Part shown: positions 25,731 through 30,851 of the stretch, in pieces
Numbering within the stretch: the stretch's first letter is position 1
Layout of the letters: the number at the start of each line of letters is the position of its first letter
Source: Biomaibacter acetigenes
GTDB lineage: Bacteria > Bacillota > Thermosediminibacteria > Thermosediminibacterales > Tepidanaerobacteraceae
Direction: 5' to 3'
DNA: 64,000 bases
Assembly: GCF_003691585.1 (NCBI RefSeq)
Contig: NZ_CP033169.1
Coordinates: forward strand, 3,162,001-3,226,000
Translations under genes and position numbers: made by a program
Notes under the pieces: generated by a model
The model's database searches: none
What the model was told of the DNA's origin: nothing
The model's input: the letters and a program-made list of their open reading frames with translations, nothing else

Positions 25731-25825
25731 TGGCGGAGAGAGAGGGATTCGAACCCTCGATACGGATTTTTGTCCGTATACGCGATTTCCAGTCGCGCGC
25801 CTTCGACCAGCTCAGCCATCTCTCC
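25731..25825 (-). tRNA. tRNA-Ser (GGA)
   Basis: Full cloverleaf with a long variable arm. Acceptor GGAGAGA pairs with TCTCTCC, CCA is encoded, and the anticodon loop is CTGGAAA. Confidence 0.95.
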
Positions 25826-25900
25826 ACGTTTAGAGGTCAGATGTCAGAAATCGGATGTCAGATTAGATGAAATTTGCTTGGGCAAATTTCTTATACTAAT

Positions 25901-25985
25901 ATCTGAGGTCGGATATCAGATGTCGGACTCGTTAGATTTGCCGAAGGCAAATCCTTCTATTCCGACCTCTGACTTCCGGCTTCTG
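25901..25985. repeat. Dispersed spacer repeat between tRNA genes
   Basis: A degenerate array of GATGTCGGA-like words followed by ATTTGCCGAAGGCAAATCC. The same block recurs at about 27070-27160. Both lie in spacers between tRNA-Ser genes, suggesting copying between spacers by recombination. Confidence 0.7.
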
Positions 25986-25997
25986 ACTTTTGTTTAA

Positions 25998-26087
25998 TGG
26001 CGGAGAGAGTGAGATTCGAACTCACGAGGCGGATTTACGCCCACTCGCTTTCGAGGCGAGCGCCTTCAACCTCTCGGCCATCTCTCC
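25998..26087 (-). tRNA. tRNA-Ser (CGA)
   Basis: Cloverleaf with long variable arm, encoded CCA, anticodon loop CTCGAAA between CTCGC and GCGAG. Confidence 0.95.
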
Positions 26088-26191
26088 GTATTCAGAGGTC
26101 GGATGTCGGAAGTCGGATGTCAGATGCAACATCCATCTCATATACCGACTCCTGACCCTTTTGCAATAAGGTCTACCTACATTATATCATA

Positions 26192-26656
26192 TTATCTTTT
26201 TTTCTTGAAAAAATCCTTCAAAATCTTGCCACATTCCTCGGCCAGCACCCCCGGCACCATCTCAGGCCGGTGGTTGAACCTCTCATCCTCAGGGATGTTC
26301 ATGAGGCTGCCGCAGGCTCCCGCCTTAGGATCATGGGCTCCGAAAACAACCCTGTCAAGCCTCGAAAGGACAATGGCTCCGGCACACATGGGGCATGGCT
26401 CTAAAGTCACATAAAGGGTGCAGCCTACCAGGCGCCATGTCTTCAAAGCTTCACAGGCCTTTCTTATGGCCAGCAGCTCTGCATGAGCCGTAGCATCCTG
26501 AGAGGTCTCCCTCAGGTTGTGCGCCCTGGCGATGACCTCATCGCCCATCACAATCAAAGCTCCCACGGGCACCTCATCAAACTCCAGAGCCTTTTCTGCT
26601 TCCTTCAAAGCTTCCTGCATAAAAAAAACATCAAGCTCTTTAATTTCTTCTTCCAT
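26192..26656 (-). CDS. tadA: tRNA-specific adenosine deaminase
   Basis: This 154-residue zinc deaminase has the catalytic HAE (ATAHAELLAIRKA) and PCPMC (TLEPCPMCAGAI). It changes A34 of tRNA-Arg(ACG) to inosine so that one tRNA reads CGU, CGC and CGA. The start is placed at 26656, because an upstream extension would run through the tRNA-Arg(CCT) gene. Its substrate gene tRNA-Arg(ACG) lies only about 230 bases upstream. Confidence 0.95.
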   Translation of the reverse strand: MEEEIKELDVFFMQEALKEAEKALEFDEVPVGALIVMGDEVIARAHNLRETSQDATAHAELLAIRKACEALKTWRLVGCTLYVTLEPCPMCAGAIVLSRLDRVVFGAHDPKAGACGSLMNIPEDERFNHRPEMVPGVLAEECGKILKDFFKKKR

Positions 26657-26677
26657 GAGATATTTCCAAATCACAAA

Positions 26678-26754
26678 TGGTGCGCCCGGGAGGACTCGAA
26701 CCCCCGGCACGCGGTTTAGGAAACCGCTGCTCTTTCCTCCTGAGCTACGGGCGC
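26678..26754 (-). tRNA. tRNA-Arg (CCT)
   Basis: 77-nt cloverleaf, acceptor GCGCCCG/CGGGCGC, encoded CCA, anticodon loop TTCCTAA. Confidence 0.95.
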
Positions 26755-26889
26755 CCAACAAGATGTGAGAGGCGTGAAGTTTGAGGTGAGATAGCTCTCG
26801 AGCCTCTCTTTTGTCCATCTCACTTTATTTTATTGAGGTCCAGGATGTCTTATTTCACACATCCAACATCCCGCATCACACTTCACATT

Positions 26890-26966
<77 letters not shown>

Positions 26967-26971
26967 ATAAA

Positions 26972-27067
26972 TGGCGGAGAGATCGGGATTCGAACCCGAG
27001 ATACGGATTTTAGGTCCGTATAATCGCTTAGCAGGCGACCGCCTTCGACCTACTCGGCCATCTCTCC
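26972..27067 (-). tRNA. tRNA-Ser (GCT)
   Basis: Cloverleaf with long variable arm (ATACGGACCTAAAATCCGTAT), encoded CCA, anticodon loop CTGCTAA. Confidence 0.95.
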
Positions 27068-27076
27068 GCGTTTCGG

Positions 27077-27160
27077 ATATCAGATGTCGGATATCGGACT
27101 CGTTGGATTTGCCGAAGGCAAATCCTTCTATTCTGACCTCTCATTTCCGACCTCTGACTA
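27077..27160. repeat. Second copy of the tRNA spacer repeat
   Basis: Same ATTTGCCGAAGGCAAATCC-containing block as at 25901-25985. Confidence 0.7.
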
Positions 27161-27168
27161 CCGCTTAA

Positions 27169-27255
27169 TGGCGGAGGGGGTGGGATTCGAACCCACGGCT
27201 CTTTCGAGACACTGATTTTCAAGACCAGCTCCTTAAACCGCTCGGACACCCCTCC
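27169..27255 (-). tRNA. tRNA-Ser (TGA)
   Basis: Cloverleaf with long variable arm, acceptor GGAGGGG, encoded CCA, anticodon loop CTTGAAA. Confidence 0.95.
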
Positions 27256-28642: not shown

Positions 28643-28689
28643 AATAACTTTCATAGAAAGCGACGGCCGCTTCACTTTCATTTCCAACC

Positions 28690-28828
28690 CTGGAGGAATT
28701 TTATCAATAAAATGTCGAGCAGCCTTTCACAAATTACAGATACACTAGGGGATATCTGCAAAAAACAAACCGAGGTAGCCGGTTCCTTAAATCAGAACAA
28801 CATCAGGATGGCAGAGCTTTTGAATTAA
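28690..28828 (+). pseudogene. Internally deleted copy of the Rossmann-chemoreceptor gene
   Basis: The leader ACCCTGGAGGA...ATCAATAA and the last 37 codons of the gene at 30006-30797 are joined here, with everything between removed. The join keeps a 38-codon reading frame (ATG at 28712, TAA at 28828, ending NNIRMAELLN). Identity to the intact copy is high, so the duplication is recent. Confidence 0.85.
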
Positions 28829-28846
28829 AAAAAGGATGGATAAAAC

Positions 28847-29128
28847 ATGATTATCGGCACAATGATCGTAGAGATTTCCTTAGGCGATACATTTTCATTA
28901 AAAGATAAAAGGCAGATAGTGAAAAGCATAATCGAAAGGTTGAAAAACCGCTACAATATATCCATAGCGGAAGTGGACAGGCAGGATGATATAAGGCGGA
29001 CGGTAATCGGCATGGCTTGCGTTTCTACTACCAGCGAACATGTAAACCGCCAGCTAGACCATGTCCTCTCATTTATGGAAAAGGATGGCCGCTTCACCGT
29101 GGAAAATGTGGAGAAGGAAATGCTGTAA
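28847..29128 (+). CDS. DUF503 (YlxP-like) protein
   Basis: This 93-residue protein is typical of DUF503: SLKDKRQIVKSIIERLKNRYNIS, then IAEVDRQDD and a C-terminal helix. In Bacillus the gene ylxP sits in the nusA-infB operon; function is unknown. Here it follows a deleted chemoreceptor copy. Its stop codon TAA abuts the first repeat of the cassette array. Confidence 0.88.
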   Translation: MIIGTMIVEISLGDTFSLKDKRQIVKSIIERLKNRYNISIAEVDRQDDIRRTVIGMACVSTTSEHVNRQLDHVLSFMEKDGRFTVENVEKEML

Positions 29129-29148
29129 ATAAGTGAGTGCCGGGTACC
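29127..29148. repeat. Cassette-array repeat, left boundary copy
   Basis: A short copy (GTGAGTGCCGGGTACCTA) of the REP-like unit, lying between the DUF503 stop codon on the plus strand and the DUF2442 stop codon on the minus strand. It supplies the TAG stop of DUF2442. Confidence 0.7.
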
Positions 29149-29405
29149 TAATGTTTAGCTTTTCTACCTATAAGCAACCCTTCAACTGAAATATCTTCAT
29201 CTAAATCTTCCCAGTGAATACCGATTCCATTCCCTATCAGCCGCCATTTCGACCTCTGATTATCATTTGCTTTTTTGAGCTTTGGAAACCAATCCAGTGG
29301 AACTCCTATCTCTCTACCATCACTAAGTAAAACATAAAATTTATCATCATCGAACCATAGTTCCATAGCATTTGCTTTAATTAAATCATTATCTAAAATA
29401 CTCAT
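29148..29405 (-). CDS. DUF2442 protein, likely antitoxin-like partner
   Basis: This 85-residue protein has ALELWFDD-like N-terminus, LSDGREIGVPLDWFPKL and GIGIHWEDLDEDISVEGLL, the DUF2442 signature. It overlaps the DUF4160 gene by 17 bases. The pairing of DUF4160 with DUF2442 is widespread and looks like a toxin-antitoxin module, but biochemical proof is lacking as far as I know. Confidence 0.86.
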   Translation of the reverse strand: MSILDNDLIKANAMELWFDDDKFYVLLSDGREIGVPLDWFPKLKKANDNQRSKWRLIGNGIGIHWEDLDEDISVEGLLIGRKAKH

Positions 29406-29622
29406 TCCATTGCCTCCTCATCATTTCCAGGTTTCTTTCAATGATTTTGCTTATCTCTGAGAGTTCATATGCTTTAAAGCCATATGAACTTGCTAATGAA
29501 ATATGATCCAACCAGAATTTAGCATATTTATTATCTGACTCAACATGAATGTGCGGAGGTTCAGTTCCTTCATTGCTGAAAAAGAAAAATCTATATTTAT
29601 CTTCTTTAAGAACTGTTGGCAT
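29389..29622 (-). CDS. DUF4160 protein, likely toxin-like partner
   Basis: This 77-residue protein has the DUF4160 motif FFFFSNEGTEPPHIHVE with paired histidines, then KFWLDHISLASSYGF. The start is one of two adjacent ATG codons after AGGAGAAAG. Transcribed ahead of DUF2442. About 290 bases beginning at its start codon and running upstream recur at 33535-33820, next to a RAYT relic. Confidence 0.84.
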   Translation of the reverse strand: MPTVLKEDKYRFFFFSNEGTEPPHIHVESDNKYAKFWLDHISLASSYGFKAYELSEISKIIERNLEMMRRQWNEYFR

Positions 29623-29905
29623 CATCTTTCTCCTTTTTATAATGCATAGGAAAGCAAAAATATACCTTATTGTAGAGCTTTCCGTATGCATTTCAAGAAA
29701 GCTACCGCTATTTAATTGCTTACAATAAAAGCTTTTTTATAATTCAAAGGGGATAAAAAAATCGTGATTTCAACATTTTTATAATATCATTTATAAAATA
29801 TTTTGTAAATATGTGATATTAAAAAGTAATTCCTGATGTATCTATGATAACAGAAGGTGTCTTAATTTTCAATAAGTGAATATGTGAGTGCCTGGCACCA
29901 TGGCA
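29618..29905. repeat. 290-base direct repeat (copy 1), includes REP-like unit
   Basis: Nearly identical to 33535-33820. Both end in GTGAGTGCCTGGCACC. Copy 2 directly follows the stop codon of a RAYT C-terminal relic, so copy 1 probably marks the 3' end of another lost RAYT element. Confidence 0.85.
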
Positions 29906-30005
29906 CCATTTTCTTATGCTTGCGAAATATTCCCAACCCTGGAGGATTTTTATCAATAAATGTCGAAAAAATATCGAATAAATATCTTACAAGGGGGATT
30001 ATTTC

Positions 30006-30797
30006 ATGAAAGTTGGAATAGTTGGCGGCGGAAAAGCCGGCACTGTATTTTTAAAATCTCTGTTGGAGCTGGAGAATGTGACTGTCGTGGGTATATGCGA
30101 TATCAATTCCGACGCGCCCGGCCTTGTGCTGGCCCGACAACACGGCATACCTGTTTGTACAGACCTTGAATCGTTTTTTTCAAACGAAATGGACGTGTTG
30201 CTGGAGCTTACGGGAAATCAAAGCGTCAGAGAAAAGATAAAGGGCATGATGCATAAAAAAACTCATCTGGTGGATTCCGATGCTGCGAAGCTCGTGGCTA
30301 TGCTTTCAGAACACCAGCAGAGCCTTAACGCCAGACTTCAAAACTATATAGACCATATGCAAACCCTTTTAAAACATCTGGCAGGGAATATTTCGGAGAT
30401 AAATGACACTGTAAAATCCATTGACAGTACCTCAAAGAAAATGGCAGAATCCGTTTCCAATTCTATGGAAAGTATAAAGCGAACAGACCAGATAATAAAA
30501 ATCATCAACGATATAACAACACGCATCAAAATCCTTGGTATCAACGCATCTATCGAAGCCGCCCGGGCCGGGGATTACGGCCGCGGTTTTTCGGTCGTGG
30601 CGGAAGAAATAGGCAAATTAACCGCCTCCAGCAAAAATGCCACTTCTGAAATAACAGACATTATTGAAAAAATGAAAACGGATATCAGCAGCCTTTCACA
30701 AATTACAGACACGCTGGGGGACATCTGCAAAAAACAAACTGAGGTGGCCGGTTCCTTAAACCAGGACAACATCAGGATGGCCGAGCTTTTGAATTAA
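30006..30797 (+). CDS. Soluble fusion of NAD(P)-binding Rossmann domain and chemoreceptor signalling domain
   Basis: This 263-residue protein has no membrane helix. Residues 1-95 form a Gfo/Idh/MocA- or homoserine-dehydrogenase-like Rossmann fold (VGIVGGGKAGTVFL, VVGICDINSDAPG, DVLLELTGN). Residues 100-263 form a methyl-accepting signalling hairpin with the conserved tip INASIEAARAGDYGRGFSVV. The tip normally contacts CheA/CheW; the Rossmann part would then be the input, perhaps sensing NAD(H) or a metabolite. It has a ribosome site AAGGGGG. No chemotaxis genes are nearby. Confidence 0.86.
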   Translation: MKVGIVGGGKAGTVFLKSLLELENVTVVGICDINSDAPGLVLARQHGIPVCTDLESFFSNEMDVLLELTGNQSVREKIKGMMHKKTHLVDSDAAKLVAMLSEHQQSLNARLQNYIDHMQTLLKHLAGNISEINDTVKSIDSTSKKMAESVSNSMESIKRTDQIIKIINDITTRIKILGINASIEAARAGDYGRGFSVVAEEIGKLTASSKNATSEITDIIEKMKTDISSLSQITDTLGDICKKQTEVAGSLNQDNIRMAELLN

Positions 30798-30800
30798 AAA

Positions 30801-30848
30801 AAGGATGGTCGCTTCACCGTGGAGAATGTGGAGAAGGAGATACTGTGA
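30801..30848 (+). pseudogene. Tail fragment of a second DUF503 gene
   Basis: Encodes DGRFTVENVEKEIL and stop, matching the last codons of the DUF503 gene at 28847-29128. The join is at AAGGATGG, a sequence present both before the DUF503 start and near its end, so deletion between these short repeats explains it. Confidence 0.82.
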
Positions 30849-30851
30849 TTA

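Follow-up and report, generated by a model that had tools for sequence, protein, structure and literature searches.

Can a chemoreceptor without a membrane part read the redox or metabolic state of the cell from within, and does it pass what it reads to the kinase CheA? These questions are raised by a gene near the middle of the 64,000-nucleotide stretch analysed here (hereafter, the window), in which a dinucleotide-binding fold precedes the signalling hairpin of a methyl-accepting chemotaxis protein (MCP). On the sequence evidence, the gene encodes a genuine soluble chemoreceptor whose sensor is an NAD-type Rossmann domain predicted to bind NAD, and the protein is a member of a widespread family (Rossmann-MCP) for which no description was found. 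We consider it rather likely that the protein is an intracellular NAD(H)- or metabolite-sensing dimeric receptor acting via CheW and CheA, in other words an internal sensor of redox or energy state. Energy and redox taxis are known mainly via FAD-PAS and haem sensors; a receptor reading NAD(H) directly would, if true, couple metabolism to movement in the simplest way possible.

Domain architecture and predicted fold

The reading frame (Table 1) is evidently not a chance one, because full-length orthologues with ~60% identity occur in the same taxonomic family (28–46% in the rest of the order). Searches against Pfam returned DapB_N (residues 1–89, E = 5.6e-7) and GFO_IDH_MocA (residues 1–87, E = 2.1e-6), both above the gathering cut-off, as well as NAD_binding_3 (E = 1.2e-4) and MCPsignal (PF00015, residues 156–238, E = 5e-25). 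In the AlphaFold2 model (mean pLDDT 90.9, pTM 0.56), a beta-alpha Rossmann fold is followed without a break by the receptor helix, which begins at residue 90; the C-terminal catalytic domain of DapB, homoserine dehydrogenase and Gfo/Idh/MocA enzymes is absent, with the hairpin helix following directly after the Rossmann domain. No membrane segment was detected in the window protein (best 19-residue Kyte-Doolittle window of 1.32, and 0.89 past residue 90), and a membrane-like stretch downstream of the Rossmann domain was seen in none of 66 short homologues. Pfam, hydropathy and the model therefore agree with the sequence-only reading of this locus, which had proposed a soluble receptor with a Rossmann input domain fused directly to the hairpin.

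Table 1 Features of the receptor gene and of the duplicated locus, in window coordinates
Feature	Position	Strand	Basis
Rossmann-MCP gene	30006..30797	+	ATG start, 263 aa + stop; Pfam, AlphaFold2 model
Ribosome-binding site AAGGGGG	29991..29997	+	8 nt upstream of ATG, read from sequence
Rossmann input domain, residues 1–90	30006..30275	+	Pfam DapB_N/GFO_IDH_MocA; model strands 2–6, 26–31, 64–67
GGGKAG (GxGxxG) dinucleotide loop, residues 7–12	30024..30041	+	Conserved glycines in receptor homologues
D32, acidic, end of strand 2, putative NAD-type ribose contact	30099..30101	+	Conservation
E67-x-T69-G70 motif, after strand 4	30204..30215	+	Conservation of T69 and G70
Descending (N-terminal) hairpin arm, residues 90–188	30273..30569	+	Model helix from residue 90
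Kinase-control tip, residues 170–205 (ITTRIKILGINASIEAARAGDYGRGFSVVAEEIGKL)	30513..30620	+	Tip alignment
Ascending (C-terminal) hairpin arm, 75 residues	30570..30794	+	Model, arm lengths
Remnant of second Rossmann-MCP copy: leader 28681–28719 joined to last ~37 codons, 28718–28839	28681..28839	+	
DUF503 (YlxP-type) gene, 3' of receptor remnant	28847..29128	+	PF04456, E = 4.9e-31
Tail remnant of second DUF503 copy, behind intact receptor	30799..30851	+	89–92% identity to 29079–29131

The best solved Foldseek matches of the model were soluble chemoreceptor structures (Tm14, Tsr and YfmS-CheW). The best of them, Tm14 (Thermotoga maritima, 213 aa, PDB 3g67), is soluble with a short hairpin like the window protein, but has no ligand-binding domain (PMC12871147) where the latter has its Rossmann domain. 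YfmS (Bacillus subtilis, 286 aa), the third-best match, resembles the window's family in being soluble, of similar length and short in the hairpin; the match spans the YfmS hairpin, and in PDB 9a72 YfmS is modelled bound to CheW. TlpD of H. pylori and HemAT of B. subtilis are two further cytoplasmic receptors whose input domain is globular, although their sensors are a zinc-binding CZB domain and a myoglobin-like domain, respectively, with no Rossmann fold (PMC12871147; PMC7542364). No methylation-site consensus, strict or loose, was found in the window protein; a strict site was present in 23 of the 66 short homologues. Membership of the MCPs does not depend on such a site, because Tm14 and TlpD are also without canonical ones (PMC12871147).

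For the N-terminus, Foldseek recovered Gfo/Idh/MocA and acylating acetaldehyde dehydrogenases, with matches to dehydrogenases at about 1.5–2.7 Å over 70–92 columns. A profile of the Rossmann part compared with the PDB gave E-values from 5e-6 to 1e-3, led by an NAD-dependent CoA-acylating acetaldehyde dehydrogenase (5e-6) and including a dihydrodipicolinate reductase and inositol dehydrogenases. Enzymes of the acylating acetaldehyde dehydrogenase, Gfo/Idh/MocA and DapB types have the fold and the GxGxxG loop in common with the window protein, but possess a catalytic or substrate half that it lacks.

Distribution of the family

We searched 399 sampled genomes of the window's phylum with a profile built on the Rossmann part alone, and the fetched loci were classified with separate Rossmann and hairpin profiles. 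The module was present in 108 of the 399 genomes, and 68 of the 399, about one in six, encoded a Rossmann-MCP. These counts contradict the earlier description of the architecture as rare, and rarity was rejected on the strength of the survey. The same description had called the architecture poorly studied, and this held: a literature search, with most subscription papers outside its coverage, turned up no account of a Rossmann or NAD-type chemoreceptor. Beyond the survey, the module was found in 4 of 21 genomes, namely a relative of the window's organism (L001), Desulforamulus, Desulfosporosinus and one further bacterium.

Most of the receptors measure 280–290 aa; the short ones have 224–238 aa, and in the longest, at about 500 aa, an extra region is inserted between both parts. 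In the ~500-aa receptors L218–L221, ~220 residues separate the Rossmann domain from the hairpin, and the two that were scanned had no Pfam match in that stretch. Being soluble, compact (about 285 aa) and found in a named cultured species, Desulforamulus putei, the family lends itself to direct tests of binding and of CheA control. A 283-aa soluble-looking receptor with a Diacid_rec (PF05651) input in place of the Rossmann domain was also observed in the window's own genome, at about 2.185 Mb (L264:3222-4073).

Conservation of the dinucleotide motif

Among 69 receptor homologues, G9, G12 and T69 were invariant (69/69 each) and G7, D32 and G70 were each kept in 68. Loss of the dinucleotide-binding residues in homologues, which the sequence-only reading had named as a refutation of its proposal, was not seen. 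Carriers of the module with other outputs (n = 19) kept D32 in 18 cases, and conserve the glycine and aspartate positions almost as well as the receptors do. A Rossmann fold whose second strand ends in an acidic residue normally selects NAD over NADP, and D32 would by this rule point to NAD as the nucleotide. We take NAD(H) to be the probable ligand and redox taxis the probable function.

The motif residues stay near-invariant though overall identity drops to about 30%. This pattern bears on a rival view in which the Rossmann fold has no ligand and serves purely as a structural cap for dimerisation. Soluble receptors such as Tm14 do exist without any ligand-binding domain (PMC12871147), but a cap would have no need for GxGxxG, D32 or T69-G70, and we regard this explanation as very unlikely.

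The same module on other outputs

Also headed by this module are sigma-54 activators in which the number of PAS domains ranges from zero to two, a PAS-Fis protein and a PAS-GAF-PAS-HD-GYP protein; it also lies inside a receiver-containing histidine kinase of bacterium FK4.bin95 (L269). The two-PAS sigma-54 form is located between spo0A and ptb-bcd (L225, L227, L228; G286, G407, G191), a position that is the bkdR locus. BkdR-type activators therefore have the N-terminal Rossmann module in common with the window receptor but differ in output, which is PAS-PAS-AAA-Fis transcription activation in the former and a receptor hairpin in the latter. No Rossmann match was obtained by Pfam at E 1e-4 in the one BkdR-type protein scanned (L225), and one study's domain description of B. 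thuringiensis BkdR names PAS/PAC domains alone (PMC4428206). Placed at the N-terminus of BkdR, the module might serve this long-known regulator as its sensor.

One-PAS sigma-54 forms adjoin sucCD and fumarase genes. The window's own genome holds a paralogue near the contig start (G000:C1:33653-35350, L124:7654-9351), a Rossmann-PAS-sigma54-Fis activator ahead of FAD-oxidoreductase-like, transporter-like and amidohydrolase-like genes. The neighbours of the sigma-54 carriers fit a signal from central metabolism. Tentatively, the module might be a widespread, unrecognised reader of NAD(H) in this phylum and its kin, feeding redox state into chemotaxis, sigma-54-dependent transcription for organic- and amino-acid catabolism including BkdR, HD-GYP signalling and histidine-kinase signalling.

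This genomic context is also what lends weight to a different ligand for the same soluble receptor, which might respond to NADP(H), to an acyl-CoA, organic-acid or amino-acid metabolite, or to a nucleotide plus a metabolite, and not to the NAD+/NADH ratio. A pathway metabolite is suggested by the ptb/bcd (branched-chain acids), sucCD and fumarase genes beside the sister sigma-54 carriers, and the closest enzymes bind NAD plus a substrate, the top profile match being the CoA-acylating acetaldehyde dehydrogenase. However, the domain is a minimal one without the substrate-binding half of the related enzymes, and the conserved D32 normally goes with NAD over NADP. We hold a ligand of this kind to be possible but doubtful, and keep NAD(H) as the preferred candidate.

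Proposed link to CheA and the chemotaxis genes

The domain pair, the conserved nucleotide motif, the conserved receptor tip and the co-occurrence with CheA are all established from sequence. In the mechanism that we propose, the N-terminal Rossmann domain would bind a dinucleotide, most likely NAD+/NADH, without catalysis. Nucleotide occupancy or redox state, or a metabolite bound over the nucleotide, would then alter the packing of the Rossmann pair on the first coiled-coil helix; the change would be relayed through the four-helix bundle of the hairpin as far as the tip, and the tip would act through CheW on CheA, with swimming or another Che output as the result. By way of such a receptor, the cell would probably let its internal redox or metabolic state guide its course. 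The identity of the ligand, the rearrangement of the dimer, the sign of the response and the choice among the three Che clusters of the genome are the conjectural elements of this scheme.

CheA was found in all 68 genomes with a Rossmann-MCP vs 328 of the 399 overall (naive hypergeometric probability of 4e-7, uncorrected for relatedness, so that the kinship of the genomes weakens its value). The window's own genome has three CheA matches and three che clusters, one of which lies within a flagellar operon with genes reading as cheA, cheW, cheC, cheD and sigD. CheA and CheW were not found near the window gene, their nearest matches being outside the window; the earlier remark that no chemotaxis genes are close by is right in this sense, with another MCP lying 22 kb off (window about 51.8–53.0 kb). 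Elsewhere, homologues sit just ahead of cheB (L212 and L215) or beside cheY-cheR-cheD, adjoining flagellar genes (L217); cheB and cheR were confirmed by Pfam and the other che genes were read from sequence. Perfect sigma-D promoters (TAAA-N15-GCCGATAA) stand 62 bp ahead of the homologue in L217 and 73 bp ahead of that in L246, vs none in shuffled sequence, an excess that is limited to these two related members. No sigma-D promoter was found upstream of the window gene.

A conserved operon partner was considered and rejected, because the neighbouring genes change from one lineage to the next (parB/hydG, spmAB/rluB, cheB, cheY-R-D or others). In a sister family (L113, L114, L116, L117, L125), the receptor gene is placed between parB and hydG, which encodes an [FeFe]-hydrogenase maturase; in other lineages it has spmAB-like genes on one side and, on the other, a gene for an rluB-like pseudouridine synthase.

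The hairpin arms measure 93 and 75 residues in the window protein, compared with family medians of 100 and 88. From the shortness of the hairpin the sequence-only reading had drawn the idea of a partner other than CheA. This step was rejected: the length of the hairpin does not speak against CheA, because Tm14 and YfmS fall in a similar size range and YfmS has been modelled in complex with CheW, and the fold matches, the CheA co-occurrence and the che and flagellar neighbours all speak for the usual kinase. What does still speak, in part, for another partner is the altered tip of the window's own subclade.

The hairpin tip and a divergent subclade

Aligned to Tsr, the tip of the window protein keeps the pattern NAxIEAA(R/H)AG(E/D)xG(R/K/Q)GF, and homologous tips retain Tsr E385, R388, E402 and mostly R404. 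In canonical members (Tsr numbering), E402 is present in 62/64 and R or K at position 404 in 61/64; R394, like these two a CheW contact residue, is mostly R/K, and Q374 and T375 are mostly kept. In the subclade of the window protein (6 sequences), E402 is retained in all six, R404 is replaced by Gly in all six (Gly203 in the window protein) and position 394 is K, R or Q. The Q374-T375 pair is lost in this subclade, with Ile at 375 in 6/6 and position 374 taken by R, Q or M, while E385, R388 (or His), F396 and the remaining tip are conserved along with E402. The receptor tip is conserved across the family and modified in the window's own subclade.

In the E. coli core unit, E402 and R404 are CheW contacts, and R404, which pairs with CheW D107, is required for the CheA kinase-on state and for array cooperativity (PMC6954272). 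The substitutions raise the prospect that the window protein has been diverted from the canonical activation of the kinase, either as a partner that is kinase-off, of low cooperativity or limited to CheW, or by talking to another protein altogether. They are fixed in the subclade at positions that include the one needed in E. coli for CheA activation and cooperativity (PMC6954272), and all nine other MCP tips recovered from the same genome are QTN or QTH. Nevertheless, the subclade otherwise keeps the tip, with E385, R388 (or His), E402 and F396 in place, and Gly404 and Ile375 also occur in MCPs of other phyla, albeit in a sample that was collected by a pattern containing that Gly and is hence biased. 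We judge diversion improbable. Signalling through CheA remains the preferred reading: kinase control by the window protein is likely, but with the altered tip and no methylation consensus its strength or sign may differ from the canonical case.

Evolution of the receptor and of the duplicated locus

The tree of the Rossmann part groups the window protein with five other receptors (SH-aLRT 99); this tree alone is compatible with one or several fusions. A tree of 160 hairpin tips fitted best with all 71 Rossmann receptors as one clade (AU 0.884), which disfavours an independent Rossmann-MCP fusion for the window's subclade. Both halves have probably travelled together since one fusion, and their being kept together argues for the Rossmann domain and the hairpin as a working unit.

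The window also holds the remains of a second receptor copy (Table 1), which is 92–93% identical to 29929–29967 and 30687–30808, with the body between deleted. The simplest history would be a tandem duplication of receptor plus DUF503 (28681–29131 and 29929–30851) followed by reciprocal internal loss, in which copy one would have lost the receptor body and copy two the DUF503 body. The deletion of the DUF503 body in copy two runs between two 10-bp AAAAGGATGG repeats. A further DUF503-tail-like piece was noted at 28650–28675, and a DUF2442/DUF4160 pair lies between the duplicate copies on the minus strand (29148–29691). Six tRNA genes, four for Ser and two for Arg, are clustered at 25731–27255 of the window.
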